From Beroe forskalii (Eukaryota > Ctenophora > Nuda > Beroida > Beroidae): 64,000 bases of DNA. The notes beneath the pieces were generated by a model, which worked only from the letters and a program-made list of their open reading frames with translations, did no database searches and was not told where the DNA came from. The position numbers and the translations under genes were made by a program. Each line of letters opens with the position of its first letter. Within the stretch, counting starts at the first letter, position 1. The stretch covers positions 62,001 through 126,000 of the forward strand of contig WFMF01000050.1 in assembly GCA_011033025.1 (NCBI GenBank), in the 5' to 3' direction. Below, in pieces: positions 500 to 28,786 of this stretch.

Positions 500-1296
500 T
501 TTTTTTTAACCAAGTCTGGAATTGATGAATTCAGCTATGTCCCCTCCCCTCCCTGGCTGTTGAAGTCTGGAACGGATGAATTCAGCTAAGTCCCCCTCCC
601 TTAAGCAGCTGTTGAAGTCTGGAACGGATGAATTCAGCTAAGTCCCTCCTCCCCTCCCTTTAGCTGTTGAAGTCTGAAATGGATGAATTCAGCTATGTCC
701 CCTCCCCTCCCTATAGCTGTTGAAGTCTGAAATGGATGAATTCAGCTATGTCCCCTCCCCTCCCTATAGCTGTTGAAGTCTGGAACGGATGAATTCAGCT
801 AAGTCCCCACTCCCCTCCCTTTAGCTGTTGAAGTCTGGAATGGATGAATTCAGCTATGTCCCCTCCCACTCTATAGCTGTTGAAGTCTGGAACGGATGAA
901 TTCAGCAAGTCCCCCCTCTCCCCACTCCCTTTAGCAATGTTTGAAGTCCCTGGAACGGATGAATTCAGCTAAGTCCCCTCCCTCCTTTAGCTGTTGAAGT
1001 CTGAAATGGATGAATTCAGCTATGTCCCCTCCCCTCCCTATAGCTGTTGAAGTCTGGAACAGATGAATTCAGCTAAGTCCCCCTCCCTTTAGCAGCTGTG
1101 AAGTCCTGAACCAGGATGAATTCAGCTAAGTCCCCCTCCCTCCCTTTAGCAGCTGTTGAAGTCTGAACGGATGAATTCAGCAAAGTCCCCTCCCCTCCCT
1201 TTAGCAGCTGTTGAAGTCTGGAACGGATGAATTCAGCTAAGCCCCCCCTCCCCTCCCTTTAGCTGTTGAAGTCTGGAATGGATGAATTCAGCTATG
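500..1296 (+). repeat. 53-57 bp satellite, block A
   Basis: About 14 tandem copies of a unit that always contains GTTGAAGTCTGGAA, GGATGAATTCAGC and a C-rich tract of the type CCCCTCCCCTCCCT. Unit length varies mainly in the C tract. Units fall into classes: AATGG..GCTATG, AACGG..GCTAAG and AACGG..GCAAAG. The same unit makes up blocks B (7531-12393) and C (28076-28786). Block A and block B are separated only by a LINE copy, so they were probably one array. Confidence 0.95.
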
Positions 1297-1790
1297 AAAA
1301 AACAATTTTTTTTTAAACAATTCTAATTTTATTGAATTTACAACACACACACACATAATATACGTTAATACTCTTACTATAATTTTGTAACCCCATTTAG
1401 AGAATTGTGAGTATGGACAAATAGGTTTAGATAATATGCGAGTGGATTATAAATCTTCACGACATGCCAAGTGACGAAAGTAACTGATATGGGTAAGAGA
1501 ATGATAAGTCACCAGAAGCTTCTGTCGTCATATGTGTAGAAAAGGGTTAGACTAAAATTAATTCGCATTGCCATCTATACTTTTTATGAATAATTATGCA
1601 CTTTCGCTGTAGCTATAGTGGTAATTGCGAGCCTTGCTGATGTAATATCTGCTGGTATATCATCGTAACGTAGCGTGGCAGTGAAAATGTTTATTGTATA
1701 CTAGATAAGTCTGGATAATTGTAGCGGCGCGCTGCCCTAAATATTGTTTAAACCATCGTGTGATTTGTTGTCGAACTACCCGAGATTTAC

Positions 1791-2588
1791 TTACACCTTA
1801 GTTTCTTGTTTCTCTTTAAATTTAACACTCGGAATATAAGGATCAGACTTCAGCAAAGTAAGGTAAGTTTGTAAAGACTTATTAGCTGGTATCCACTCAA
1901 CCTCGTCCCCATACGCCTGCATTTGCAGAAGAAAACGTTTAAGTCTATTTTTAAGACAATCTATGTTTTTAGCTGACACTATTTCACCACAATTTTTGGA
2001 GTTATGACACATAGTATTCCATAAATACGGAGCACGATAACAAAAGTTAATCTTATAATGTTTTAAGGAAAAAAGCGGTTGATATGTCCTGTTGTTTCTA
2101 GATTCACTTTCACTCCCATCAATATGGAGTAGCGTACTTAAGTATCGTGGTTCTTTAGAAAAGATCATTTTAGAATAATTGAGAATGGTAGCATAGTTGA
2201 AAATGTTATGGACCGTTAAAATCTTATTCTCATAGAATACTTTTTTAGTGTGACCCTTGATAAAGTTAGATACTTTCTTAACTCCAAATAAATTCCTAAG
2301 TGCTTTTTTTTGTAAAACAAAGAGCTTGTTCAGGTCACTTTCATTGCCTCCCCAAACTGGAATAGCGTACGATAGTTGTGAGTTAACAATAGCATTATAA
2401 ATCGTCGCACTAAGTTTCTTAGGAATAACTTTTCTCATGTCATATAGCTGTCCAATGCTATTTCTAACCTTATTTTCAACGGTTCGAATATGTTTTTTCC
2501 ATGATAGTTTTTCGTCAATAATTACTCCTAGAAATTTAACCTTAGTAACGTTTTCCAATGGTATACCGCCAAAAGCAATTTGATTCAA
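1791..2588 (-). CDS. LINE ORF2 C-terminal part (RT thumb and distal region)
   Basis: 265 codons that continue the reverse transcriptase of the preceding ORF after a single-base frameshift near 2590. The start of this frame (GGIPLENVTKVKFLGVIID) is the RT segment that follows the palm in CR1/jockey-type LINEs. SQLSYAIPVWGG and LFVLQKKALRNLFGVKK are the usual thumb-region signatures, and YLWNTM lies in the distal part. There is no independent start codon logic, because the true protein would be continuous with the upstream RT. The stop TAA is at 1791. It is a broken part of one ORF2, not a separate gene. Confidence 0.8.
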   Translation of the reverse strand: MNQIAFGGIPLENVTKVKFLGVIIDEKLSWKKHIRTVENKVRNSIGQLYDMRKVIPKKLSATIYNAIVNSQLSYAIPVWGGNESDLNKLFVLQKKALRNLFGVKKVSNFIKGHTKKVFYENKILTVHNIFNYATILNYSKMIFSKEPRYLSTLLHIDGSESESRNNRTYQPLFSLKHYKINFCYRAPYLWNTMCHNSKNCGEIVSAKNIDCLKNRLKRFLLQMQAYGDEVEWIPANKSLQTYLTLLKSDPYIPSVKFKEKQETKV

Positions 2589-3830
2589 TGCGTTTTCGAG
2601 GAGGCTTGAAATGTATATACTTAGATTTTTGGATATTTATGTGCAGAAAGTTGGCTTCTAAGTACTTTTTCAGCTTACTAAAAATAACATTCACTTTTTT
2701 AATTACTTCATCAGGACATTTTCCATCAACAAATAAGTTAGTGTCATCAGCAAATTGAATGAATGTGGCTGAATCTGTACAATTAGCTATACACTTATTA
2801 CCAGAGCACGTACATTGGCTATAAGTCAGATCATTTATGTAAATTAAAAATAGTAACGGGCCAAGAACTGAGCCTTGTGGTACACCATCATGAATTTCAA
2901 GTAGATCAGACGTTACATCGCCATTAAACACACTCTGGTATCGGTTATTAAGATAGCTTTTCAGTAGATCATGAGCTATGCCTCTGATTCCATAATTCTC
3001 GAGTTTATCTAGGAGAATTGAGTGTTTTATAGTATCAAATGCTTTACTAAAGTCGAGAAATATTCCAAATACAGTATCATTATTATTAAGACTGTTGACT
3101 ATTTGAGTAATGGCTGTATTAAGGGCATGGATAGTTGAGTGACGTTTACGAAAACCAAACTGTTTGTTATAAAGTACATTATGTTTATCAAGGAATTCGA
3201 GTACCCTGCTATGAATAAGTTTCTCAAATATTTTTGAGAAAACTGGTAAGAGAGATATAGGCCGATAATTATTTATATCACTACGGTCGTCAGCTTTGTA
3301 GAGTGGTAGGACACGAGCAATTTTTAGCTCATCAGGAAAAACGCTCGAATACATACAATTATTGAATAAAACTGCTAGTGCTGATGATATATCTTGACGG
3401 AATAGTTTAAGAACCCTAGGTGATAAGTCAGACGATTTAGTCGGGCTAAGATCTCCTATTATTTTGTCTATTTCACAGCTTTCGATTTCCTTGAAGAAAA
3501 TGGTATCCTCAACACGGTCCTTCATGAACACCTTATAATCTTTAAAATCTGAAGCAGATTTAGAACTGTTGAGATTGTGTGCAACATTAACAAAATAGCG
3601 GTTGAATTTTTCGACAATAATCCTACGATCAGTTATCTGCTCTTGGTTATAGATTATACATTTTGGAAACGAAAGGGATTTCTTTTTATGCCTCATTTCG
3701 TTTATAATTTTCCAGTACTTTTTCATGTCACCATTACATTTTCTAAAACGCTCGATATAATAATTACTTTGTGCTTCTTTAATTAGACTAGTGAAAATTC
3801 TCCTGTAATCATAGTACTCAGCTTTATATT
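2542..3830 (-). CDS. LINE ORF2 reverse transcriptase core
   Basis: Reverse transcriptase fingers and palm. Visible motifs in order are ARVLPLYKADDRSDINNYRP, ISLLPVFSKIFEKLIHSR, FGFRKRHSTIHAL, GIFLDFSKAFDTIKH, GVPQGSVLGPLLFLIYINDL and the catalytic FADD box (FIQFADDTNLFVDG). These are the RT blocks of the CR1/jockey group. The first ATG in the frame is at 3726. Reading upstream gives an open, RT-linker-like sequence to about 3830, where a one-base frameshift separates it from the endonuclease frame. The C-terminal end runs out of frame near 2590, where the thumb continues in another frame. All three catalytic Asp residues are intact, so the loss of function comes from the frameshifts. Confidence 0.9.
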
Positions 3831-5438
3831 TTCGACTTTTGGATCGCCTCGTCTACGAGCTTTAATCCATTCGGTATGTAAACTATTTTTTACTTGACTG
3901 GATTTCGCCAGTCCAATAGATATCCAAGGCTTGTCAATAAAGTTACGTTTCGAAGATAGATCAACAGTCTGTAGAAAGCAGGTATTATAACGTGTAGTTA
4001 ATGCATGATAGTATTCATGAAATTGGCTTTCAGAGTCGCGAGCAGTTATATTTTCAACAGGATGAAATTTATTAGCAAACATTTCATTTAATTCACCTAA
4101 TTTGTGGCTGAATTTGTCAATTTTTTTAGAAGAAATATTATGAAATTTCGCTGAGTTTTGCTCTTCAGTTTGATCATTAAATAAGCACTCAGTATTAGTC
4201 GGTACCGATGCAAATATTGGCAGGTGGCAAGAGGTTGAAATATTCAAAATACCAGATTGAACATTATCAGAAATTATGTTCGTCCAAATTTGGTCAATTG
4301 AGCTGAATGATTTACCTTTAAAATGTGTAGGCTTATTGATAAGAGGAGAAAACCCCGCACACATAAACAAATTTACGTAATTCTGTATGTTGGTATCATC
4401 ATTTAGTTTAAGTGTGTCAAGGTTGAAATCTCCTAAGATAATGCTAGGTTGATCATCAATAAGAGTGAGAAGTTTTGAAAGCTCATCAATACATTTAGCT
4501 TCGTTAACTTGGCGACAGTATCTATAGATAACAATGAGATTGATGAGTCCAATATCACACTTTACCTTGCCACCTAAGCATTCAAAATATTCATTACGAA
4601 AGGTAAAACATTTCTCTTTTTTGAAGTTTATATTATTTCGGAAATATATGGACAGTCCAGAACCTTTATTTTTGTCGCTTATAGCGTATAAGTGTTCCGG
4701 AGTATATCCCTTGATGACAAAATCATTCATTACTCCAGCCTTAAGATTAGTTTCATTGAAACAGTAAAAATCGAACTTTTTCTTGAAGTTAATCATTTGG
4801 TTTTGGAATTCCTTGAAGTTAGACTGAAAGCCGTCGATATTGTTAAAAAATAGAGAGATCCCCTTCAGATTGTCATCAATTTGATCCGAATTAATATATT
4901 TACAATTGTTCAGAACTTTTTTAGCAACATTAACATTTTCACAGAAGTGTTCTACGTCATCATCAAAGAAATTTAGCCTGTCGTTGTCGAGTGAAACGTC
5001 GTTGTATGGCTGAATAACGTCATTAGCAAAATCGGCATTCATGTCGGTGCTTGAATCACTAAGATATGGCAACGTATAGCAACTCGAACAGCAAGAGTTT
5101 GATTTTAGAAGGCACGAGTTATGGCAAATATTGTTACACATTGAGCAGTAAGAAACTTGGTGTCTGGTGTTACTTATAATTTTCTTACATGAATTACAGT
5201 TACTTGTGTCTACTGAGGCATCACCAAAATCAAACGCATTCAATGGCAGCATCGATTCAATACACTTAGGGCAGTACCAGTTATCGTAATGCTGTAGTTC
5301 TAGGGCCGTGTCGTTGTCTATGCCTAGACAACTGGCATGATAGACATGGTTGGTAAGATTGCAAACTAGGATAATTTGATGCGTGTAAATTCCTTTACAG
5401 CAAAGCTCACAATTCTCTCTTGGTGGGGTTCTGTGCAT
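3783..5438 (-). CDS. LINE ORF2 N-terminal part: PHD-type zinc fingers plus apurinic-like endonuclease
   Basis: 551 residues. Residues about 10-62 form a PHD-like finger (CELCCKG, HASC, WYCPKC). A second Cys cluster follows at about 80-120 (CNSCKK, CSMCNNICHNSC, CCSSC). From about residue 195 the exonuclease/endonuclease fold is visible: LFFNNIDGFQSN, CFNETNL, GSGLSIYFRN, VIYRYCR, ILGDFNLD, SSIDQIWTN and SCHLPIFAS. The last box has Cys where most family members have the Asp of SDH. The endonuclease nicks target DNA to prime reverse transcription, and the PHD-type module may bind chromatin or nucleic acid. The frame ends at 3783 where a frameshift near 3830 breaks the join to the RT. Confidence 0.85.
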   Translation of the reverse strand: MHRTPPRENCELCCKGIYTHQIILVCNLTNHVYHASCLGIDNDTALELQHYDNWYCPKCIESMLPLNAFDFGDASVDTSNCNSCKKIISNTRHQVSYCSMCNNICHNSCLLKSNSCCSSCYTLPYLSDSSTDMNADFANDVIQPYNDVSLDNDRLNFFDDDVEHFCENVNVAKKVLNNCKYINSDQIDDNLKGISLFFNNIDGFQSNFKEFQNQMINFKKKFDFYCFNETNLKAGVMNDFVIKGYTPEHLYAISDKNKGSGLSIYFRNNINFKKEKCFTFRNEYFECLGGKVKCDIGLINLIVIYRYCRQVNEAKCIDELSKLLTLIDDQPSIILGDFNLDTLKLNDDTNIQNYVNLFMCAGFSPLINKPTHFKGKSFSSIDQIWTNIISDNVQSGILNISTSCHLPIFASVPTNTECLFNDQTEEQNSAKFHNISSKKIDKFSHKLGELNEMFANKFHPVENITARDSESQFHEYYHALTTRYNTCFLQTVDLSSKRNFIDKPWISIGLAKSSQVKNSLHTEWIKARRRGDPKVENIKLSTMITGEFSLV

Positions 5439-5570
5439 TTACAAGTATTAAATTGTTATAACACCCTGCACCCAATATGATATATAGTCAAACATTTATA
5501 TAAGCACTCCTTATGATAACTGGAAATAAAGTTTAAAATGTCAAAACACGAATTTCAAAATCGGCAAAGT

Positions 5571-6209
5571 TTACACAATTTTCCTGAAAGTTGCAGAAAT
5601 TCTTGGTGAAAAATCGTCATTTGCTACAGGTTCTCCTGGGACACCGTGCAAAAATAAACCCTGACTAAGTTTAGAGAAAAGCAGAACTTGCCCGTCCTAC
5701 AGTATCACAGAACACAAAGAAGTACCACTAGATAGGCACCTAAAAAACAAACGGCGCGGGTAGCCAAGAGAAATAGTTAAAATAAAGGAGTCATCAGCTA
5801 TACTAGATTCGTCGTCAGAGTGGAAGGGTATAAAACACGACTTATTGGGGTAATAGTTAATGAGACACGAGTTAAGGCCTAGATAAGGGAACAATTGGTT
5901 GACAAACTCAAGCATTTCAGCTATGAACGGATTCGATTGAAAATTAGCGGGATAGTGGAGGACGTCTCCGTATCTGTAAGGTAGAGAGCCAAACAGCTGT
6001 GTTGCTCTACCAGATTTAAATCTTTTGTCAAATTTGAGGGACTGTAGCAGAGTTGAAAAATCAAAAGTCGGTCGGAAAGTCACATCCGGGAGCAAGCAGA
6101 TGATTTTTTCCGGCGAAATAGAAAAATCAGCAGGATTTCCGCGGATTACTTCACTGCAGTCCTCCAGATTGACGTCCTCTAGAACATAACGAGGCATTAA
6201 ATTCGTCAA
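5571..6209 (-). CDS. AlkB-like Fe(II)/2-oxoglutarate dioxygenase ORF inside the LINE, one in-frame TAG
   Basis: Starts ATG at 6209 and runs 170 codons to a TAG at 5697-5699. The same frame then continues 41 more codons to TAA at 5571, completing the domain. Landmarks: FGSLPYRYG (about 73-81), NSCLINYYP (113-121), the metal ligands H130 and D132 in PFHSDDES, ISLGYPRR (146-153), then after the stop the distal ligand H188 in FLHGVP, and R203/R209 in RISATFRK, which bind 2-oxoglutarate. This is the ALKBH2/3 and viral AlkB pattern, in proteins that oxidatively remove methyl groups from 1-meA/3-meC in DNA or RNA. It lies between ORF1 (gap about 456 bp) and ORF2 (gap about 132 bp) on the same strand. 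Function in the element is inferred. The stop is either a disabling mutation or a readthrough site. Confidence 0.85.
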
Positions 6210-6537
6210 AATTACATCAATTCTATCTTAGTATGCAATTTTAACTAACAAGGGAGTTGAAATGATGACATAGCATATAAGCATATACAACATACAAAAT
6301 ACTATCATAGGAGAACATGGGCGCGATTATGCACAGTGTAAATGTCAAACATTATGTATTCTGATGTATTAATGTATTAATTTTATTATGTATCATAAGA
6401 ACATCCAAAATAAATTCAATTAAATTATGAATTGATAAGGAATGATCTGTACTATATCTTTATTCATCTACATCACAGATAGTACAGAATATTAACCTGA
6501 TCCTATATTCTGTATTTACTCATCAAACATTGCACAG

Positions 6538-6612
6538 TAACTTTTCTCCTAGTACGCTATTGATTATTGATAAGTAACTTTGCTCCTAGTACGCTATGAT
6601 TATTGATAAGGT
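6538..6612. repeat. Two-copy tandem repeat in LINE inter-ORF region
   Basis: Two adjacent copies of a 36-37 bp sequence containing CTCCTAGTACGCTAT and GATTATTGATAAG, lying between ORF1 and the AlkB ORF of the LINE. Confidence 0.75.
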
Positions 6613-6665
6613 ATTCACTTATATTTATAGCACACGGTACAATAACTTCCCAGTTCACGCTATGA

Positions 6666-7508
6666 TCAATTAACTACGCGGCAATCTGGAAACTTAGCCA
6701 TGATATGATTCGCAAAATCCTCCCAACAATGAATGCCGTTGAAGTAATCCCCCGATGCCAACTTCACAGCAAAGCCAGAGGTCGGACTCTGGTAGGTCAC
6801 CCATTTCGGCTTTAGGTTGACGTTCTTGATGTGGCCGTATGTCTTGCCATCTGCTGGGTTCGCGTTCAGGAACTCATAAATAGAACCTTTGAGGTCAGCG
6901 TAGTGTTTTTTCAGTGATTGGTAAACCTTTACCTCCCGTGGCCGTTTGTTGGCTGTATCGTAGTTGCGATATTTGCGTAAGACTGTGTCTTTCTTGTTGA
7001 TACGGCAAAAACGAACGGTCACAGATGGAGGTATGGTCTTACCTCTAACAGTCCTGTTGTCCCTCGAATTCGGGTGGACCGCTGAGAGGTCTGAGGCAAC
7101 AACTGCTTCCCCTGATTGAGATAGGATGTTCGCCACCTTGGTGCAGAGGTCATTCTCCGTCTCTTCGTCAGCTTTCGGAAGACCAACGACGGTAACCGTA
7201 TCACGACGAGAGTACTGCTCCGTCTTTACGACTGTAGCCGTCAAGTCATCAACAGTGTCCCTTACGTTCCGGTTCCTTACGATCATCTCTTCTCTCAACT
7301 GGGCTTGCTCGACCTTCAACTCCTTAACCTGACTGTTCAGCAAACACAGATATGACTTCACACCTTTCTCGAACTCCGAGTTGGCACTCAGTCCGTCAAG
7401 CATCCCTTGCATCGTGTCAAGAGTTGACGCAACGCTGTCAATACGGTTTCCGAGTGTACCACTTGCAGCAACCTGCGACGAAGCGTTTCCGGAGCGTGTA
7501 TTTACCAT
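6666..7508 (-). CDS. LINE ORF1: coiled-coil/RRM-like nucleic acid-binding protein
   Basis: 280 intact codons, ATG at 7508, 23 nt from the element's 5' end. Residues about 20-95 are a heptad-rich helical region (LDTMQGMLDGL, QVKELKVEQAQLREEM). Residues about 95-190 have the RRM-like pattern of L1/CR1-type ORF1 proteins (VVKTEQYSRRDTVTVVGLP, PSVTVRFCRINKKDTVLRKY), and a basic C-terminal domain follows (YQSLKKHYADLKGSIYEFLN). Such proteins form multimers that package the element RNA. No CCHC knuckle is visible. It is the only fully intact ORF of the element and is on the same strand as the AlkB ORF and ORF2. Confidence 0.8.
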   Translation of the reverse strand: MVNTRSGNASSQVAASGTLGNRIDSVASTLDTMQGMLDGLSANSEFEKGVKSYLCLLNSQVKELKVEQAQLREEMIVRNRNVRDTVDDLTATVVKTEQYSRRDTVTVVGLPKADEETENDLCTKVANILSQSGEAVVASDLSAVHPNSRDNRTVRGKTIPPSVTVRFCRINKKDTVLRKYRNYDTANKRPREVKVYQSLKKHYADLKGSIYEFLNANPADGKTYGHIKNVNLKPKWVTYQSPTSGFAVKLASGDYFNGIHCWEDFANHIMAKFPDCRVVN

Positions 7509-7530
7509 ATCGGGTGCAGGGTATAATTAG

Positions 7531-10500
7531 ATGAATTCAGCTAAGTCTCCCTGTTTAGCTGTTGAAGTCTGGAATGGATGAATTCAGCTATGTCCCCTCC
7601 CCTCCCTATAGCTGTTGAAGTCTGGAACGGATGAATTCAGCAAAGTCCCCTCCCCTCCCTTTAGCAGCTGTTGAAGTCTGGAACGGATGAATTCAGCTAA
7701 GTCCCCTCCCCTCCCTTTAGCTGTTGAAGTCTGGAATGGATGAATTCAGCTATGTCCCCCTCCCCTCCCTTTAGCTGTTGAAGTCTGGAATGGATGAATT
7801 CAGCTAAGTCCCCCTCCCTTTAGCAGCTGTTGAAGTCTGGAACGGATGAATTCAGCAAAGTCCCCCTCCCCCTCCCTTTAGCAGCTGTTGAAGTCTGGAA
7901 CGGATGAATTCAGCTAAGTCCCCCCCCTCCCTTTATAGCTGTTGAAGTCTGGAACGGATGAATTCAGTTAGTCCCCCCCTCCCCTCCCTTTAGCTGTTGA
8001 AGTCTGGAATGGATGAATTCAGCTATGTCCCCTCCCCTCCCTATAGCTGTTGAAGTCTGGAACGGATGAATTCAGCTAAGTCCTCCCCCTCCTTTTTAGC
8101 TGTTGAAGTCTGGAACCAGCTAAGTCCCCCCCTCCCCTAGCAGCTGTTGAAGTCTGGAACGGATGAATTCAGCTAAGTCCCCCTCCCCTCCCTTTAGCTG
8201 TTGAAGTCTGGAATGGATGAATTCAGCTAAGTCCCCTCCCCTCCCTTTAGCTGTTGAAGTCTGGAACGGATGAATTCAGCTAAGTCCCCCTCCCCCTCCC
8301 TTTAGCTGTTGAAGTCTGGAACGGATGAATTCAGCTAAGTCCCCTCCCCTCCCTTTAGCAGCTGTTGAAGTCTGGAATGGATGGATGAATTCCAGCTGTT
8401 GAAGTCCCCTAAGTCCCCTCCCTTTAGCTGTTGAAGTCTGGAATGGATGAATTCAGCTATGTCCCCTCCCCTCCCTATAGCTGTTGAAGTCTGGAACGGA
8501 TGAATTCAGCAAGTCCCCTCCCTCCCTTTAGCAGCTGTTGAAGTCTGGAACGGATGAATTCAGCTAAGTCCCCCTCCCCTCCCTTTAGCTGTTGAAGTCT
8601 GGAACGGATGAATTCAGCTAAGTCCCCCCTCCCCTCCCTTTAGCTGTTGAAGTCTGGAATGGATGAATTCAGCTATGTCCCCTCCCCCTCCCTTTAGCTG
8701 TTGAAGTCTGGAACGGATGAATTCAGCTAAGTCCCCCTCCCCTCCCTTTAGCAGCTGTTGAAGTCTGGAACGGATGAATTCAGCTAAGTCCCCCTCCCCT
8801 CCCTTTAGCTGTTGAAGTCTGGAATGGATGAATTCAGCTAAGTCCCCCTCCCCTCCCTTTAGCAGCTGTTGAAGTCTGGAATGGATGAATTCAGCGAAGT
8901 CCCCTCCCTATAGCTGTTGAAGTCTGGAACGGATGAATTCAGCTAAGTCCCCCCTCCCTTTAGCTGTTGAAGTCTGGAACGGATGAATTCAGCTATGTCC
9001 CCCCTCCCTTTAGCTGTTGAAGTCTGGAACGGATGAATTCAGCAAAGTCCCCCCCCCCTCCCTTTAGCAGCTGTTGAAGTCTGGAACGGATGAATTCAGC
9101 TATGTCCCCTCCCCTCCCTATAGCTGTTGAAGTCTGGAATGGATGTCTCCCCTCCCCCTCCTCCCTTTTTAGCTGTTGAAGTCTGGAATGGATGAATTCA
9201 GCTATGTCCCCCCCCCTCCCTATAGCTGTTGAAGTCTGGAATGGATGAATTCAGCTAAGTCCCCCCTCCCCTCCCTTTAGCTGTTGAAGTCTGGAATGGA
9301 TGAATTCAGCTAAGTCCCCCTCCCCTCCCTTTAGCAGCTGTTGAAGTCTGGAATGGATGAATTCAGCTAAGTCCCCCTCCCTTTAGCTGTTGAAGTCTGG
9401 AACGGATGAATTCAGCTATGTCCCCTCCCCTCCCTCCCTTTAGCTGTTGAAGTCTGGAATGGATGAATTCAGCTAAGTCCCCCCCTCCCTTTAGCTGTTG
9501 AAGTCTGAACGGCCTCCCTTTAGCTGTTGAAGTCTGGAATGGATGAATTCAGTCTATGTCCCTAAGTCCCCCTCCCTAGCAGCTGTTGAAGTCTGGAATG
9601 GATGAATTCAGCTAAGTCCCCCTCCCTCCCTTTAGCTGTTGAAGTCTGGAATGGATGAATTCAGCAAGTCCCCCCCTCCCTTTTAGCAGCTGTTGAAGTC
9701 TGGAACGGATGAATTCAGCTAGTCCCCCCCCCTCCTTTAGCAGCTGTTGAAGTCTGGAACGGATGAATTCAGCTAAGTTGTCTCCCCTCCCCTCCCTTGG
9801 ATGAATTTTAGCTCCCTTTTGTTGAAGTCTGGAATGGATGAATTCAGCAAAGTCCCCTCCCCCATTCTGCTGCAGCTGTTGAAGTCTGAACTGGGATGGA
9901 TGAATTCAGCTAAGTCCCCCTCCCCTCCTTTTTAGCTGTTGAAGTCTGGAATGGATGAATTCAGCTAGTCCCCTCCCCTCCCTTTATAGCTGTTGAAGTC
10001 TGGAATGGATGAATTCAGCTAAGTCCCCTCCCTCCCTTTAGCAGCTGTTGAAGTCTGGAACGGATGAATTCAGCTAAGTCCCCCCCCCCCCCCCTCCTTT
10101 GAAGTTGGAACGGATGAATTCAGCTGTTGAAGTCTGGAATGGATGAATTCAGCTATGTCCCCTCCCCTCCCTTTAGCTGTTGAAGTCTGGAATGGATGAA
10201 TTCAGCAAAGTCCCCCTCCCCTCCTGTTGAAGTCTGTTGAAGTCTGGAACGGATGAATTCAGCAAAGTCCCCCTCCCCCTCCCTTTAGCAGCTGTTGAAG
10301 TCTGGAACGGATGAATTCAGCTAAGTCCCCCCTCCCCTCCCTTTAGCTGTTGAAGTCTGGAATGGATGAATTCAGCTATGTCCCCCCCTCCCTATAGCTG
10401 TTGAAGTCTGGAACGGATGAATTCAGCAAAGTCCCCTCCCCCTCCCTTTAGCAGCTGTTGAAGTCTGGAACGGATGAATTCAGCTAAGTCCCCCTCCCCT

Positions 10501-12393
10501 CCCTTTAGCTGTTGAAGTCTGGAATGGATGAATTCAGCTATGTCCCCTCCCCTCCCTATAGCTGTTGAAGTCTGGAACGGATGAATTCAGCAAAGTCCCC
10601 CCTCCCCTCCCTTTAGCAGCTGTTGAAGTCTGGAATGGATGAATTCAGCAAAGTCCCCCTCCCCCTCCCCCTCCCTTTAGCAGCTGTTGAAGTCTGGAAC
10701 GGATGAATTCAGCTAAGTCCCCCCTCCCCTCCCTTTAGCTGTTGAAGTCTGGAATGGATGAATTCAGCTATGTCCCCTCCCCTCCCTATAGCTGTTGAAG
10801 TCTGGAACGGATGAATTCAGCTAAGTCCCCCCCTCCCCTTTAGCAGCTGTTGAAGTCTGGAACGGATGAATTCAGCTAAGTCCCCCTCCCCTCCCTTTAG
10901 CTGTTGAAGTCTGGAACGGATGAATTCAGCTAAGTCCCCCCTCCCCTCCCTTTAGCTGTTGAAGTCTGAACGGATGAAGTCCCCTCCCCTCCCTTTAGCA
11001 GCTGTTGAAGTCTGGAATGGATGAATTCAGCTAAAGTCCCCCTCCCCTCCCTTTAGCTGTTGAAGTCTGGAATGGATGAATTCAGCTATGTCCCCCTCCC
11101 CTCCCTATAGCTGTTGAAGTCTGGAACGGATGAATTCAGCAAAGTCCCCCTCCCCCTCCCTTTAGCAGCTGTTGAAGTCTGGAACGGATGAATTCAGCTA
11201 AGTCCCCCTCCCCTCCCTTTAGCTGTTGAAGTCTGTTGAAGTCTGGAATGGATGAATTCAGCTAAGTCCCCCTCCCCTCCCTTTAGCTGTTGAAGTCTGG
11301 AACGGATGAATTCAGCTGTTGAAGTCTGGAACGGATGAATTCAGCTAAGTCCCCCCTCCCCTCCCTTTAGCAGCTGTTGAAGTCTGGAACGGATGAATTC
11401 AGCAAAGTCCCCCTCCCCTCCCTTTAGCAGCTGTTGAAGTCTGGAACGGATGAATTCAGCTAAGTCCCCCCTCCCCTCCCTTTAGCTGTTGAAGTCTGGA
11501 ATGGATGAATTCAGCTATGTCCCCTCCCCTCCCTATAGCTGTTGAAGTCTGGAACGGATGAATTCAGCTAAGTCCCCCTCCCCTCCCTTTAGCAGCTGTT
11601 GAAGTCTGGAACGGATGAATTCAGCTAAGTCCCCCTCCCCTCCCTTTAGCAGCTGTTGAAGTCTGGAACGGATGAATTCAGCTAAGTCCCCCCTCCCTTT
11701 AGCTGTTGAAGTCTGGAACGGATGAATTCAGCTAAGTCCCCCTCCCCTCCCTATAGCTGTTGAAGTCTGGAATGGATGAATTCAGCTAAGTCCCCTCCCC
11801 TCCCTTTAGCAGCTGTTGAAGTCTGGAACGGATGAATTCAGCTAAGTCCCCCTCCCCTCCCTTTAGCTGTTGAAGTCTGGAACGGATGAATTGTTGAAGT
11901 CTGGAACGGATGAATTCAGCAAAGTCCCCCTCCCTCCCTTTAGCAGCTGTTGAAGTCTGGAACGGATGAATTCAGCAAAGTCCCCACTCCCTTTAGCTGT
12001 TGAAGTCTGGAATGGATGAATTCAGCTAAGTCCCCCTCCCCTCCCTTTAGCTGTTGAAGTCTGGAATGGATGAATTCAGCTATGTCCCCTCCCCTCCCTA
12101 TAGCTGTTGAAGTCTGGAATGGATGAATTCAGCAAAGTCCCCCCCCCCCCCCCTTAGCTGTTGAAGTCTGGAACGGATGAATTCAGCAAAGTCCCCCTCC
12201 CCCTCCCTTTAGCAGCTGTTGAAGTCTGGAACGGATGAATTCAGCTAAGTCCCCCTCCCCTCCCTTTAGCTGTTGAAGTCTGGAATGGATGAATTCAGCT
12301 ATGTCCCCTCCCCTCCCTATAGCTGTTGAAGTCTGGAACGGATGAATTCAGCAAAGTCCCCCTCCCCCTCCCTTTAGCAGCTGTTGAAGTCTG
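7531..12393 (+). repeat. 53-57 bp satellite, block B (about 4.9 kb)
   Basis: About 85-90 tandem copies of the block A unit. Every typical unit has an EcoRI word (GAATTC) and a C-rich tract. A higher-order order of three unit types (..GCTATGTCCCC..CTATAGCTG, then ..GCAAAGTCCCC..TTTAGCAGCTG, then ..GCTAAGTCCCC..TTTAGCTG) recurs many times, clearly between about 10.3 and 12.4 kb, giving a repeat of about 160 bp. Scattered truncated or fused units (for example near 8380-8420, 9500-9560 and 10090-10130) point to unequal exchange. Confidence 0.95.
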
Positions 12394-12921
12394 GAAGCAG
12401 AAAAAGAGGAGACTGTGCAGAGCAAAGACAAAGAGCTGAAGGAAATGAGGAAGACCGTGACCAAAGAAATGAAGAGCTGGGCCGACGTCGTCAGCAAGAA
12501 TGTGAAGAGCACTGAAATCACTCCCAGCGTGATAAAAGAGGCGGTGAAATCTGCTGTTGAAGAGGACAGAGGAGAGGAGGACAGGTCTCACAACGTCATG
12601 GTGTACGGGTTGGAGGAAAGAGATCGCGGGAACGAGCAAAATCTTCAGCTTCGTACTTTGTTAAAGGAGCTGGATTCTTGCATTGACTTGGATAAAGTCA
12701 CGTATGCAAGGATTGGAGCGGTCAAGGAGGGCAGCGTGAGACCCGTCCGGGTAACGTTTGAGAAGAAGGACTTTGTACCTTGGGTTCTTTCACGAAGCCG
12801 GGTACTCAAGGACAGTGATCAATTCCCTCTGTGTTTCTGGGACCTGACCGCAGTGGGAGGAGCGACAAGCTCACAGGAAACTGGTGGAGAGATGAAAAAG
12901 ACGTCTGGAGATCCTCGATAG
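12394..12921 (+). pseudogene. ORF1 fragment of another LINE, fused to the satellite edge
   Basis: An open frame begins exactly where the satellite stops (after ..GTCTGGAA at about 12393) and runs to TAG at 12921. It is rich in Lys/Glu helix (KELKEMRKTVTKEMKSWADV), then shows an RRM-like ORF1 core: HNVMVYGLEERDRGNEQN, KVTYARIGAVKEGSVRPVRV and VLSRSRVLKDSDQF. After about codon 146 the frame loses family character, suggesting a frameshift near 12830. There is no ATG at the 5' end; the first in-frame start-like codon is GTG at 12415. It is therefore a 5'-truncated remnant. It differs from the ORF1 at 6666-7508, so it comes from another LINE family. No ORF2 follows on this strand. Confidence 0.65.
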
Positions 12922-14898: not shown

Positions 14899-17424
14899 TT
14901 AGCGGCGAAGGTAGTTGTAAATTTTGGATCTGGAGAAGATCATATACTTTGTTTTCTTAAGATTTAATACAAGTCCATTAGACTCTACCCACTGAACAAG
15001 GCTCGAGACAAGCCTGTTTAGCTGATCATTAATCGATTCTATTGTATCTGCAGTAAGTATAATGTTGGCATCGTCAGCATATAGTATAAACCTGGCAAAG
15101 TCTGCAACCTCGGGTATATCATTTATATATACTATAAATAGGAGAGGTCCTAGAATGCTTCCTTGTGGTACTCCGTATCTAACATCCCTTAAATCAGAAT
15201 TTCCACCGTTGACAGAGACAAATTGTTTTCTGCCGCTGAGATATGATTCAATCCACTTGAGAGGGGTTCCACGGACGCCATAATGGGATAGTTTATCAAG
15301 TAGTTTGGAGTGCTCCACTAGATCAAATGCTTTGGAGAAATCTATGAGCAGTAGGAGAGAGATTTGGCGTTTAGAGAGCGATTCAAGTATTATGTTTTGG
15401 GCACTTAGAAGGGCATGTTCACAGGATCGACCTGGGCGAAATCCATATTGCATCTCGTTTAGTGAGCAGTTTGAATCTAAGAAATTAAGCAAACGGTTAT
15501 GCATAAGTTTTTCAAAAATTTTGGAGAAAGAGGAAAGCAAGGAAATTGGCCTGTAATTAGATACACTAGATTTTGAGCCCTCTTTGTGGATTGGAATCAC
15601 TCTCGCGGTTTTCATTTGCTCAGGAAAAACACCTTCCTGGAAAGATTTGTTAACAATCAAAGCAAGTACATCTGTAAATTTATGTGAATTATTCGCAATT
15701 TTCAATGCATCTATCTTTAAGTCTCTGGTAGCCTTGTTCTTGAAACCGTTTATTGTTTTATGTATATCGGCTGCGCGAACTGATTCAAGATACATAGAAC
15801 GACTGACAGAACCCTTGAGAAATTGCTGATGATTAAGCACTGTATTATTCACGTTGCTCTTCAGATCAGATGCTATGTTAGAAAAATAGTCATTGAAAGA
15901 GTTGGCCATATCATTAGGTATGTTAATCGTGTCGCCCTTTTTGTTGATAAGCTTGTTGATATGCGTTGTTTTATTATTACGGTTTAAGAGACTGTTGATC
16001 ATTTGCCATTGCTTTCTGGAGTTATCCCTATGCTTATCGAAAAAATCCTTGCGATATTTAATTTTAGCTAGTTCGATATGCTTGTCACAGAAAACTTTCA
16101 ATCTATCGTATGTTCTCTTACTTATGGGAGATGGCCTCTTAACAAATTCGTGGTAAGCGTTCTGTCTACGCGCGCAGGCATCTTCAAGCCATGGCAAAAT
16201 CCATGGTTTAGGGTTCTGCCTTTCGTTAGTACGTCGCACTCGCTTAGATTTAATGGGGTAAGCAGAATTATAGTGTTGAGTGTATATGGCTTCGAATTTG
16301 CTGTATGCCGTTTGGGTGTCCATGTCAGATGTTATTGCCTCCCACTTTTCGTTACTAATTAACTTATCAAATGCCTCGTTATTGGCTTCGTTGAATAATC
16401 GAGAGTCAGAATTCTTGTCTGAACAAGAAGTCAGACTCTTGATTCTACCTATAGCCGTGCTAGTTCCAAGCGAGCATGTGGTGTGCGTGGCGAGATGATC
16501 GGATAGATCAGTGGTAAATATATTACAGCTCAGTGTCCTATCAATATTGCTCGTATAAACATGGTCAATGAGTGTGGCAGAATGGTCAGTTATTCTGGTT
16601 GGGCGCGATACAATTTGAGCGAAACCATGATTATGGGCTGTATCAACCAAGTTTTGGCAGTTAACGTCGTCATCATGTTTAATTAGATCTTGATTAAAAT
16701 CTCCAGCAATGAACTTGATTTTGTTAGCAAATCGTGTAGCATTCAACGACTTTAGTATGTTATCGTACAACTTATTAAAATTATCAGCATTTTTGGAAGG
16801 TGATCGGTAGACATTACCTAGTATGACAGTTCTAGGTTGGCCTTTACATTCAAGAATTTTAACGAACTGAAATTCGCCACTCCCACTATAATCGCTTTCT
16901 GATGTATCATACGGTGTAAAAGGTTTAATATTTTCTTCGTCACATATTCTTGTGTTAACGTAAATAGCTAGTCCTCCTCCTTTCCCTGACTTACGAATAG
17001 GATCTTGGATAACTGGTAAGTGAAAACCTGGAATTTTCAAATCGTTAAGTCCGTTAGGAAGCGCAGTTGTAACACAGTTGGTTTCGTTCAAAAGGAGCAC
17101 GTCAAACTTTTCGAAAAAAGTGATTTCTTCGCGCATTCTCTCAACCTTATTTGACAAGGAGCGGATGTTAAGTGAAAAAATACTTAGTTCGGTATCCCTA
17201 CTGAGTGATACTACGGATGGTTGTTTGTAGCTACATTTGACAAGCAGTTCTGCCACCTCGTTGAAGGCCTGGTTAATGTTTTGCTCGTCGTCTAAAACAT
17301 TTCCTATTCTCTGTGTAAGATGAGAGCTACAATAAGGGTTGTAGATTTTGTTATTGTTCAAATTCGGATCTCCTAGCAGTTCATAAGTACAGGCATGGAA
17401 CCTGGAATGATTTCCTCGCAGCAT
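14899..17424 (-). CDS. LINE ORF2: endonuclease-reverse transcriptase (841 codons)
   Basis: A long open frame with an endonuclease in residues about 80-330 (IFSLNIRSLSNKVERMREEI, LLLNETNC, GKGGGLAIYVN, VILGNVYRSPSKN, FIAGDFNQDL, ATLIDHVYTS, DLSDHLATH) and a reverse transcriptase from about 570 (ARVIPIHKEGSKSSVSNYRP, YGFRPGRSCEHAL, LLLIDFSKAFDLVEH, GVPQGSILGPLLFIVYINDI, RFILYADDANI). The EN metal and catalytic boxes, including the SDH motif, and the RT YADD box are intact. The natural N-terminus is not its first ATG: the zinc-cluster frame at 17373-17603 overlaps it and should be continuous through a frameshift near 17400. At the C-terminus the frame breaks near 14910. The product would nick DNA and copy the element RNA. 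Confidence 0.9.
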   Translation of the reverse strand: MLRGNHSRFHACTYELLGDPNLNNNKIYNPYCSSHLTQRIGNVLDDEQNINQAFNEVAELLVKCSYKQPSVVSLSRDTELSIFSLNIRSLSNKVERMREEITFFEKFDVLLLNETNCVTTALPNGLNDLKIPGFHLPVIQDPIRKSGKGGGLAIYVNTRICDEENIKPFTPYDTSESDYSGSGEFQFVKILECKGQPRTVILGNVYRSPSKNADNFNKLYDNILKSLNATRFANKIKFIAGDFNQDLIKHDDDVNCQNLVDTAHNHGFAQIVSRPTRITDHSATLIDHVYTSNIDRTLSCNIFTTDLSDHLATHTTCSLGTSTAIGRIKSLTSCSDKNSDSRLFNEANNEAFDKLISNEKWEAITSDMDTQTAYSKFEAIYTQHYNSAYPIKSKRVRRTNERQNPKPWILPWLEDACARRQNAYHEFVKRPSPISKRTYDRLKVFCDKHIELAKIKYRKDFFDKHRDNSRKQWQMINSLLNRNNKTTHINKLINKKGDTINIPNDMANSFNDYFSNIASDLKSNVNNTVLNHQQFLKGSVSRSMYLESVRAADIHKTINGFKNKATRDLKIDALKIANNSHKFTDVLALIVNKSFQEGVFPEQMKTARVIPIHKEGSKSSVSNYRPISLLSSFSKIFEKLMHNRLLNFLDSNCSLNEMQYGFRPGRSCEHALLSAQNIILESLSKRQISLLLLIDFSKAFDLVEHSKLLDKLSHYGVRGTPLKWIESYLSGRKQFVSVNGGNSDLRDVRYGVPQGSILGPLLFIVYINDIPEVADFARFILYADDANIILTADTIESINDQLNRLVSSLVQWVESNGLVLNLKKTKYMIFSRSKIYNYLRR

Positions 17425-26026: not shown

Positions 26027-27643
26027 TCATCGCACGTTCCAATCAATAAAACGTTGTCTCAGGGGCCATTTAAAGTCTCTCAAACGACCAGTAGGCCGTC
26101 TTCCATTAGTCAAACAAGAAGTGTACTCCACAGCCAATACCAGATGATCAGTAACTAACTTTCTCGCTTGCCACGTAATGTGGATACCTCTGCGGTCTTC
26201 TTTATCAATTACTCCCTCCAGACGCTCACTGATTCTATCGTTCAGTAGAATGGAATGTGAGTCAAAAGCTAGGTTACGTATGCTCTGAGCTAGTTCGTAC
26301 ATGTAAGCGTTAAACTCATTGATTTCATGGTTCAACCAATCATACTTGGTATGTGCGTGTAGAACGCTATTAAACATGAATTTTGTTCTGGGGTATTTTT
26401 CGCAGGTGCGACGTAGCCGTTCACACACCATATCCGCGAGGGTTCTAGCTGTAAAACCATAGCACGACAAGTCGTTGATGCCTGCTGAGATTATGACTGT
26501 GTTGCAGATTTCGAATTCAGGCTCAAAATTAAAGATGTCAACAAGGCGTTTATTTGATTTTTTGATGCATCGTAGGTTGGTTACTTTGTTAAAGATCGAG
26601 GTTGGGGCTGCAGACAGGATTGAGTCTGTTAGCAGCAAACAGCGCTCATGCGTACCCGCGGGGATGGAGTTAGGGGACTTGTACTCTTCAGGGCGTGTGA
26701 TTGGAGGTGCGGGGGTGCGCTTAGGTACAACTGCCCTGAGCTTGCGGAATCCTAAAGAAATGCGCATGTTGCTACAGTCCTGGGGCAGCATGCCGTGTTT
26801 CCAAGTGCTCTGTGAGTCTCTCGACATGCTGTAGACACTGCCATGTTTGATGTTCACAACCGTCTCATTGAGAAGGCCTACCTGGTTTTGTAGCGTGAGG
26901 TACCTGTCATTTCCTACTGAGATCGTATAGATTGTACTGCCTTCGACAATTTGCTCTTCGTCATCATTATGAAGCGGTATTTGAGATTGACCATCCGGGT
27001 AATAGGTAACTAGACAGGTATAGTCGTCATACGAAAAATCGGGTTCAACGCTTTTCATACGATTAAGGATGAGTTCAAACAATTCGTTATCAGGGTATGG
27101 AGCTGGCTCGTGTTTCACACGACCATATGAATATCCAATAGATCCGAAATAGGCAGTTTTTCGGCTATAGGATTCTGATGTATTGAAATCAACGGCAGCG
27201 TAGATGTCCTCAGGTACTAAATCAGTAAACAAATCTTCAAACACACGACATACCGTTTCATCTACTTGTGGGGGCTCACTCACTGCTACTGGAGGGGCAA
27301 TGTCGTGGTTGTCTTCCTCCTCTGGTGCTGTGACTGGGGGACGTTCTTTCAGCTTCGTCAGGGTCTCTACTGCGGCTTCGGCTCGTTTCACCAGGTATGA
27401 AAAGGACGAAATGGTTTCAGTAACATTGTCAATAGTTTCACATAGATCATGACCGACACGTTCATTCAATACGGCTTTGATAGCGTTAAAATAACCCTTT
27501 TTTGTGCTAGCAGTGGTCGTTATGTTCATATATTTTATTTCAAATTCAAGCTGATCTTCAGACAATAGGGGTAAAATGTCCAAACAAGTCTTTGGAGAAA
27601 ATGTAAAGTGTGGAATGTCCAACTCACCGCCAATAGAGGCCAC
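26027..27643 (-). CDS. AlkB-like dioxygenase fused to SGNH/GDSL-type hydrolase (retroelement-type ORF)
   Basis: About 538 codons to TAG at 26027. The frame's first codon here is GTG (27643) and it is open further upstream to about 27735, so this is not the true start. Residues 1-130: helical and acidic/proline-rich. Residues about 130-310: AlkB fold with YFGSIGYSYG, CLVTYYPDGQSQIPLHNDDE (metal ligands His and Asp), ISVGNDRYL, KHGMLPQ (distal His) and RISLGFRKL (2-oxoglutarate-binding Arg). Residues about 333-510: SGNH hydrolase with the Ser block LLLTDSIL, the Asn block ISAGINDLS and the His block RRGIHITWQARKL. SGNH esterase domains are known in ORF1 proteins of CR1-type LINEs; the AlkB part is unexpected. 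No RT follows downstream. It could be a LINE ORF1 remnant or a captured gene. Confidence 0.85.
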   Translation of the reverse strand: MASIGGELDIPHFTFSPKTCLDILPLLSEDQLEFEIKYMNITTTASTKKGYFNAIKAVLNERVGHDLCETIDNVTETISSFSYLVKRAEAAVETLTKLKERPPVTAPEEEDNHDIAPPVAVSEPPQVDETVCRVFEDLFTDLVPEDIYAAVDFNTSESYSRKTAYFGSIGYSYGRVKHEPAPYPDNELFELILNRMKSVEPDFSYDDYTCLVTYYPDGQSQIPLHNDDEEQIVEGSTIYTISVGNDRYLTLQNQVGLLNETVVNIKHGSVYSMSRDSQSTWKHGMLPQDCSNMRISLGFRKLRAVVPKRTPAPPITRPEEYKSPNSIPAGTHERCLLLTDSILSAAPTSIFNKVTNLRCIKKSNKRLVDIFNFEPEFEICNTVIISAGINDLSCYGFTARTLADMVCERLRRTCEKYPRTKFMFNSVLHAHTKYDWLNHEINEFNAYMYELAQSIRNLAFDSHSILLNDRISERLEGVIDKEDRRGIHITWQARKLVTDHLVLAVEYTSCLTNGRRPTGRLRDFKWPLRQRFIDWNVR

Positions 27644-27933
27644 CCCTCCGCGGGGAGGCAGAGTGGGGGGTGTAGTGCTGATCTGGCTCGCAGGTGTGAC
27701 ACTGCTCCCCAGATCGGACGACCCACCCCTGAGTCAGAAATAATGCCCTCATTTAAAGTATCAAGCGACGGTTTATGCGACAACAAGCGATCAGGTGGGC
27801 AAGAATGCCTCCGTCCCCAGTCACAGCAGCTGCAGGAATGGCCAGCGTTTCTACTAGAACTAGGTGGTGGGTTTTTAGCGCCTGTTGCTTTGGGTGGCGG
27901 TTGCGAAGATCTAGAAGCCTTAGGTTTCGTCAT
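27644..27933 (-). CDS. Proline/serine-rich N-terminal segment of the AlkB-SGNH ORF (other frame)
   Basis: An ATG at 27933 opens a frame reading KPKASRSSQPPPKATG and a Cys/His patch (HSCSCCDWGRRHSC), then DTLNEGIISDSG near 27735. At that point the frame carrying AlkB-SGNH becomes open (SSDLGSSVTPASQIS), so a single-base frameshift near 27720-27735 most likely separates the two halves of one protein. From 27720 onward this frame looks non-coding. The predicted protein would be about 640 residues. Confidence 0.55.
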
Positions 27934-28075
27934 AATACGTAAATGTATAGCTCGTCACAAAGCAAATCAGTAAGATATGAATACACGATGTGTGCACACG
28001 GTTGGCTGATAAGCTAATTGTTAGCAGTTGAGCTGCACAACATAATATGAAAAGATAAAGTCACACTGAAAAGAT

Positions 28076-28786
28076 AAAGGGAGGGGAGGGGACATAGCTG
28101 AATTCATCCATTCCAGACTTCAACAGCTAAAGGGAGGGGAGGGGGATTTAGCTGAATTCATCCGTTCCAGACTTCAACAGCTGCTAAAGGGAGGGGGACT
28201 TTGCTGAATTCATCCGTTCCAGACTTCAACAGCTGGTAAAGGGAGGGGAGGGGGGACTTACCTGAATTCATCAGTTCCAGACTTCAACAGCTATAGGGAG
28301 GGGAGGGGACATAGCTGAATTCATCCATTCCAGACTTCAACAGCTAAAGGGAGGGGAGGGGGGACTTAGCTGAATTCATCCGTTCCAGACTTCAACAGCT
28401 GCTAAAGGGAGGGGGACTTTGCTGAATTCATCCGTTCCAGACTTCAACAGCTATAGGGAGGGAGGGGACATAGCTGAATTCATCCATTCCAGACTTCAAC
28501 AGCTAAAGGGAGGGAGGGGGACTTAGCTGAATTCATCCGTTCCAGACTTCAACAGCTGCTAAAGGGAGGGGGAGGGGAGGGGACTTTGCTGAATTCATCC
28601 GTTCCAGACTTCAACAGGTATAGGGAGGGGCGGGGACATAGCTGAATTCATCCATTCCAGACTTCAACAGCTAAAGGGAGGGGAGGGGGACTTAGCTGAA
28701 TTCATCCGTTCCAGACTTCAACAGCTGCTAAAGGGAGGGGGAGGGGGACTTTGCTGAATTCATCCATTCCAGACTTCAACAGCTCT
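28076..28786 (-). repeat. 53-57 bp satellite, block C (inverted relative to A and B)
   Basis: About 13 copies of the reverse complement of the block A/B unit (AGCTGAATTCATCC, TTCCAGACTTCAACAGCT, and a G-rich tract of the GGGAGGGGAGGGG type). The same three unit types recur in the same higher-order order. It lies about 140 bp upstream of the ATG at 27933, in the same orientation relative to that ORF as block B has to the ORF1 fragment at 12394. Confidence 0.95.

Follow-up and report, generated by a model that had tools for sequence, protein, structure and literature searches.

Long interspersed nuclear elements (LINEs) of a ctenophore carry, as one of their coding modules, an AlkB domain that is a 2-oxoglutarate/Fe(II) dioxygenase of the ALKBH2/3-like kind. 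The domain was recognized in a 64,000-nucleotide stretch of Beroe forskalii contig WFMF01000050.1 (the window), where an AlkB-like coding frame had been annotated at positions 5571-6209. Within Beroe, AlkB has diversified together with the reverse transcriptase (RT), under strong purifying selection and with its catalytic residues kept, and the LINEs that bear it form a large group, of old origin and with recent activity. We infer, with a probability of about one half, that the module acts as a demethylase on the RNA template or complementary DNA (cDNA) of its own element, removing modifications of the 1-methyladenine (m1A) and 3-methylcytosine (m3C) type and so enabling target-primed reverse transcription.

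In the window, the order of the element is open reading frame 1 (ORF1), AlkB, PHD-endonuclease and RT, all on the minus strand:

1295..7529, minus (read 7529 -> 1295): entire LINE copy within an array of 53-bp satellite, which flanks it on both sides
6666..7508, minus: ORF1 of 280 aa, with a weak likeness to LINE-1 ORF1p
5571..6191, minus: AlkB frame, ATG at 6191 to TAA at 5571, identified by PF13532, motif positions and same-genome homologues
3783..5438, minus: start of ORF2, 551 aa, with PHD-type zinc fingers and an APE-type endonuclease (Pfam)
2542..3726, minus: RT (RVT_1 E 2.6e-32, FADDT motif), in an open frame that differs from the endonuclease's
1791..2588, minus: C-terminal part of ORF2, a further open frame with relatives in other fetched loci

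The placement of AlkB between two LINE ORFs on one strand, made in the initial annotation, holds for ORF1 upstream (7508-6666) and for the PHD-endonuclease and RT downstream (5438 to 1791); that annotation gave no strand, and ORF2 is split into three open frames. It also described an open ORF of 212 residues and overlooked an in-frame TAG at residue 171 (positions 5699-5697), which breaks the frame. The 164 residues before this stop are sufficient for a PF13532 match above cut-off (E 1e-9, 39.3 bits against 31.2), and the catalytic residues H130, D132, H188, R203 and R209 are confirmed in the 213-codon frame. Because of the stop codon in AlkB and the broken ORF2, the window LINE is a dead copy, of a kind with intact copies elsewhere. 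Exo_endo_phos is barely above its Pfam cut-off at the start of ORF2, and the PHD and C1 matches are under theirs. A Pfam scan of the window ORF1 gave no match to LINE-1 ORF1p, and a profile built from four such ORF1s matched LINE-1 ORF1P chains weakly (E 0.019-0.02).

Other AlkB ORFs match PF13532 more strongly (11 of 11 above cut-off, 54.5-78 bits). Among 26 copies, the HxD...H iron ligands and the last arginine are kept in all, and the first arginine in 25, with histidine in the remaining one; in a 20-row alignment the iron ligands and last arginine are again complete (20/20) and the first arginine is nearly invariant. The LINE AlkB matches the double-stranded beta-helix fold of solved AlkB proteins, bearing out the AlkB identity originally given to the translation. 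By both sequence profile and fold, the closest solved structures are human ALKBH2 and ALKBH3, which are nearer than other ALKBH proteins, FTO or AlkB, and the matched ALKBH-type structures include ones with 3mC DNA. ALKBH2 and ALKBH3 are cellular repair enzymes; their identity to the LINE domain in structural alignments is about 20-26%, and the HSDDE motif is common to the LINE domain and ALKBH3. ALKBH5 matches at best with E 0.0055. Matches to the NCBIfam AlkB models were far under their cut-offs, and the window piece was unmatched.

We searched the window's own assembly (216 Mb, 1134 contigs) and found the window's AlkB piece at no fewer than 148 places with E-values of at most 1e-3 (of 186 candidates, 150 were scored); by our own count from the match table, 141 of the 148 matches are without an internal stop. 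On contig C1134 of this assembly (13,339 bases), a 120-residue cox1 segment translated with TGA as tryptophan is identical to COX1 of Beroe forskalii; this places the host in the genus Beroe, phylum Ctenophora, although a match of such length does not fix the species. Twenty places were fetched at about 10 kb each, and in 15 of these AlkB is followed, downstream on its own strand, by an endonuclease or RT match. In one more, L038, the DNA downstream resembles the ORF2 of L048, a family described below; this locus (C370:206300-216200) has two AlkB stretches on the same strand, separated by about 1.4 kb. The nearest other full family, L031, whose RT is 79% and whose AlkB is 57% identical to that of the window, has ORF1, AlkB and PHD-endonuclease in the same order as the window and an open AlkB frame of 211 codons. 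L050 is a second copy of the L031 family, 99.3-99.6% identical where aligned, in which AlkB, next to the PHD-endonuclease, is reduced to residues 97-209 split over two frames, with an ORF1 match about 6.4 kb further up. There are therefore two near-identical copies of this family, one of them with a whole AlkB. DNA searches also recovered copies that consist of no more than the 3' end of the window element, 638 bases long at 98% identity and 240 bases long at 99%, a pattern that LINE insertion leaves and a sign that the element was active recently.

Gene order was compared over 161 AlkB places (the 148 and 13 new ones), 106 RT rows (105 of 2637 candidates scored) and 78 of 83 endonuclease rows, the five omitted being second pieces of listed places; rows are not always separate elements, and L050 gives two endonuclease rows. 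Among the matches listed, 32 of 106 RT rows have AlkB within 6.5 kb upstream on the same strand, compared with two upstream on the other strand, two downstream on the same strand and none downstream on the other. For the endonuclease, AlkB is within 4.5 kb upstream on the same strand at 39 of 78 rows, and the other orientations count 1, 0 and 0. Counted from AlkB, 51 of the 161 places have a window-like RT or endonuclease downstream among the matches listed, the rest being of the L048 type or with an unlisted RT, and some maybe with none. L048 ORF2 matched 54 rows, and in 16 of them the match reaches back to the start of ORF2 (query residue 6 or earlier); by eye, 12 of these 16 have AlkB within about 2 kb upstream, C594 has it 5 kb away, and C324, C1 and C337 have none. 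The 15 ORF1-like places (from 20 rows), also read by eye, comprise nine in which AlkB follows on that strand after 228-726 bases, one with AlkB at about 6.4 kb downstream, and five with none.

The domain occurs in two architectures. AlkB is a separate ORF with an ORF1-like match upstream in the window element, L031, L032, L034 and L044. It is instead part of a frame of 477-657 codons, ahead of a domain with SGNH motifs, in L035, L036, L039, L040, L045, L046, L048 and a second ORF of the window, and in several loci the endonuclease-RT (EN-RT) frame follows directly. Both ORFs of L048 are open (557 and 913 codons). In an alignment of 38 fused ORFs (8 from this genome and 30 from a protein database), AlkB residues H210, D212, H270 and R281 are invariant and R287 is at least 90% conserved; in the second domain S352 and N410 are invariant, and D526 and H529 are conserved at 90% or above. 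In the AlphaFold model of L048 ORF1, residues 6-29 form a helix and AlkB spans about 119-290; a linker modelled with low confidence then leads to a second domain, which starts near 344. Pfam matches to this second domain are under cut-off, or absent in two of seven; the 50 rows listed by Foldseek were filled by AlkB, and the SGNH likeness is that of motifs and sub-threshold Pfam matches. The fused ORF of the window and the satellite bordering both of its AlkB elements are located as follows:

26030..27733, minus: second AlkB ORF, AlkB (PF13532 E 2.4e-14) then an SGNH-hydrolase-like domain (Lipase_GDSL_2 E 0.0042, below cut-off)
512-1294, 7556-12396 and 28075-28784: 53-55-bp satellite, with the first element inside the array

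The 53-bp satellite at 28075-28784 is just upstream of this second ORF, and no RT was found downstream of it when the sequence was read to 24250; it appears to be an ORF1-only or truncated element.

Nonsynonymous to synonymous substitution ratios (dN/dS, NG86) were estimated over 26 AlkB stretches for the 60 nearest of 325 pairs; the pairs come from a small number of families and are not independent of one another. The AlkB ratio is 0.09-0.17 in all ten pairs at dS 0.12-1.1 (L014/L012 0.10; L008/L010 0.12; L014/L016 0.14; L014/L013 0.16; L014/L018 0.17; L022/L020 0.13; L007/L008 0.13; L007/L010 0.12; L026/L020 0.09; L022/L026 0.09), far below 1, as purifying selection across copies would have it. 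The linker adjoining AlkB serves as an internal control. Among L036, L039 and L048 this linker has a dN/dS of 0.46-0.81 and the N-terminal part 0.20-0.38, compared with 0.08-0.12 for AlkB, 0.08-0.11 for the SGNH part and 0.06-0.07 for EN-RT. The close pair L045/L047 has a ratio of 0.40 in AlkB, on 7 changes, and 0.65 in the N-terminal part. Between the window and L031, synonymous differences are near saturation (0.80) and nonsynonymous differences are 0.29.

Bases of the m1A and m3C type are modified on their pairing face and stop reverse transcriptases, and ALKBH3 acts on single-stranded DNA and RNA that contain them. The element encodes an ALKBH3 kind of enzyme, joined in many families to ORF1p, and for this reason we favor a role in care of the template. 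AlkB would be made from the element RNA alongside ORF1p and ORF2p and would act in or near the element's ribonucleoprotein, where it would strip the RNA template or single-stranded cDNA of methyl groups on the Watson-Crick face of the bases. Removal of these groups would keep target-primed reverse transcription from stopping, and fusion to ORF1p would hold the enzyme on its template. The initial annotation had suggested that the enzyme could protect the RNA template or remove regulatory marks; its interpretation is supported, being mostly favored by the tests it named, and either role for the enzyme is one that we infer. A broader version, in which ctenophore LINEs are template-repairing retrotransposons whose ancient self-encoded ALKBH3-like enzyme, often in ORF1p beside a hydrolase, demethylates their own RNA (m1A/m3C) so that RT completes, is put forward more tentatively. 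If it were true, base methylation of RNA would be one way in which the host defends itself against LINEs, and these elements would have countered it.

Several observations weigh against a template-demethylating module common to these elements. AlkB dN/dS rises to 0.24-0.52 in pairs with dS below 0.11 (0.24-0.35 in three pairs at dS 0.09-0.10; 0.30-0.52 in three at dS 0.026-0.035, on few changes), as expected of recent dead copies. The residue after HxD is aspartate in 15 of 26 copies and asparagine in 11, and because of this split the substrates may differ among families, a hint of more than one substrate range. Four of the 20 fetched AlkB places are without a same-strand endonuclease or RT downstream (in L033 and L037 the RT is on the opposite strand; L043 and L049 have nothing). 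Among the matches listed, there is no upstream AlkB at 74 of 106 RT and 39 of 78 endonuclease rows, to which truncation of copies and the length limits of the match lists contribute. The diverged relative C55 has ORF1 (41%), PHD-endonuclease (43%) and RT (52%, 8 stops), with no AlkB between ORF1 and ORF2. Other copies with AlkB between ORF1 and ORF2, as sought by the initial annotation, include L031, with an open frame; AlkB is partial in L050 and missing in C55. Two queries, in a match search only, gave no AlkB match near ORF2 of C802 and C1080 (RT 59%). Since such AlkB-less relatives exist, the module can have been lost in some lineages or gained more than once. In C254, ORF1 runs directly into RT, a deletion. 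The AlkB-less ORF1-ORF2 interval of C55 (L062, C55:185400-186350) has frames in which a repeated stretch is seen by eye.

A further point against m1A/m3C as the substrate is that the known retrotransposon precedent, an AlkB of orchid Ty3/gypsy elements, demethylates N6-methyladenine (m6A) in vitro (PMC9289625). On this precedent, the Beroe enzyme would erase regulatory m6A from element transcripts and evade epitranscriptomic silencing by the host, which we consider unlikely, as its closest solved structures are ALKBH2/3 and not ALKBH5 or FTO, with ALKBH5 matches at E 0.0055 and weaker. Somewhat less likely still is an action on DNA, in which the enzyme would repair or demethylate the target site, or else the cDNA or chromatin at insertion (ALKBH2-like, or as removal of DNA N6-methyladenine). 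The structure of ALKBH2 on double-stranded DNA is as close in fold as ALKBH3, and the PHD-like finger in ORF2 might bind chromatin, since PHD fingers read histone marks (PMC4120745). However, in many families AlkB sits in ORF1, the presumed RNA-packaging protein, and its motif is HSDDE, as in ALKBH3, not the HRDDE of ALKBH2. It is improbable that AlkB is a general host gene for alkylation repair or stress, or a non-catalytic domain for ORF1p folding or oligomerisation: the fused type may need the domain for folding, but the iron ligands and last arginine are complete in both alignments, dN/dS is low, and in other families AlkB is an ORF of its own. A chance juxtaposition, in which one copy happened to acquire a lone insertion or a host ALKBH gene between its LINE ORFs, is rejected as having next to no probability, given a second family member and many families with AlkB before endonuclease/RT.

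Like the Beroe LINEs, flexivirus-type plant RNA viruses are parasites that replicate through RNA and have an AlkB; in flexiviruses it is a domain of the viral replicase. The other parallel is a plant long terminal repeat (LTR) retrotransposon. Ty3/gypsy (Tat/Ogre-like) elements of Phalaenopsis resemble the Beroe LINEs in being retrotransposons with an extra AlkB ORF, whose ALKBH5-like product is a demethylase in vitro (PMC9289625). They differ in being plant LTR elements, whereas the Beroe elements are animal non-LTR retrotransposons with an ALKBH2/3-like enzyme, in many divergent families and also inside ORF1. Among CR1/L2/Jockey-group LINEs, members of L2 subgroup 5 combine an L1-like ORF1 with a PHD after it, probably where ORF2 begins, much like the window family minus AlkB; the available part of the survey includes no AlkB in ORF1 types I-V, and a count of the word AlkB in that paper gives 0 (PMC4120745). 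The type IV ORF1p of ZfL2-1 and other LINEs has a coiled coil, a poorly conserved linker and a C-terminal SGNH hydrolase (PMC3905857). The fused Beroe families, whose last domain is a putative SGNH hydrolase, resemble it but have AlkB between the N-terminal helix and the hydrolase-like domain. Among the papers listed by searches of the open literature, none shows AlkB in a LINE; Repbase, bioRxiv and most subscription journals were outside the scope of these searches. The orchid AlkB is the sole retrotransposon precedent found; as far as the available parts of these sources extend, what is new here is a LINE with the domain outside the described ORF1 types.

The domains by which LINEs are described are few. 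Those of Beroe, whose phylum is in many placements the sister group of all other animals, have kept a nucleic-acid demethylase domain over long divergence and in two architectures. If the demethylase reading holds, base methylation of RNA or cDNA would be a direct factor in LINE mobility. The Beroe LINE AlkB would then be a natural, testable demethylase-on-template system.

Scans of viral contigs for AlkB-LINE contigs found no relative. A scan of prokaryote genomes returned 11 loci, all with bacterial titles and 8 of them cyanobacterial, which were not used as LINE evidence. Metagenomic relatives of AlkB are, at a guess, from other ctenophores. One relative, P0015 (55% to L031), is filed as a protein of a Tenacibaculum metagenome-assembled genome whose longest contig is 6042 bases, and is possibly from a mis-binned eukaryotic LINE contig.

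Satellite is present on both sides of the first window element, as the initial annotation had it in setting the element boundaries, and TAGCTGAATTCATC occurs at both junctions (7543-7530 and 1294-1281) as a 14-bp duplication. This is suggestive of a target-site duplication and is not independent evidence of one, because these letters recur all through the satellite array. In the gap between ORF1 and AlkB, a 37-bp unit is present twice (6536-6610), which could be a leftover of a 5' untranslated region or an internal start. Scanning the window with Rfam (gathering threshold) and for tRNAs gave no matches. Elsewhere in the window, another LINE, with no upstream AlkB match, has a long open EN-RT frame of 841 codons at 14902-17424 (minus strand). 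At the satellite's other edge, a 177-codon ORF without a Pfam match (12388-12918, plus strand) is by eye like the ORF1 of another LINE.
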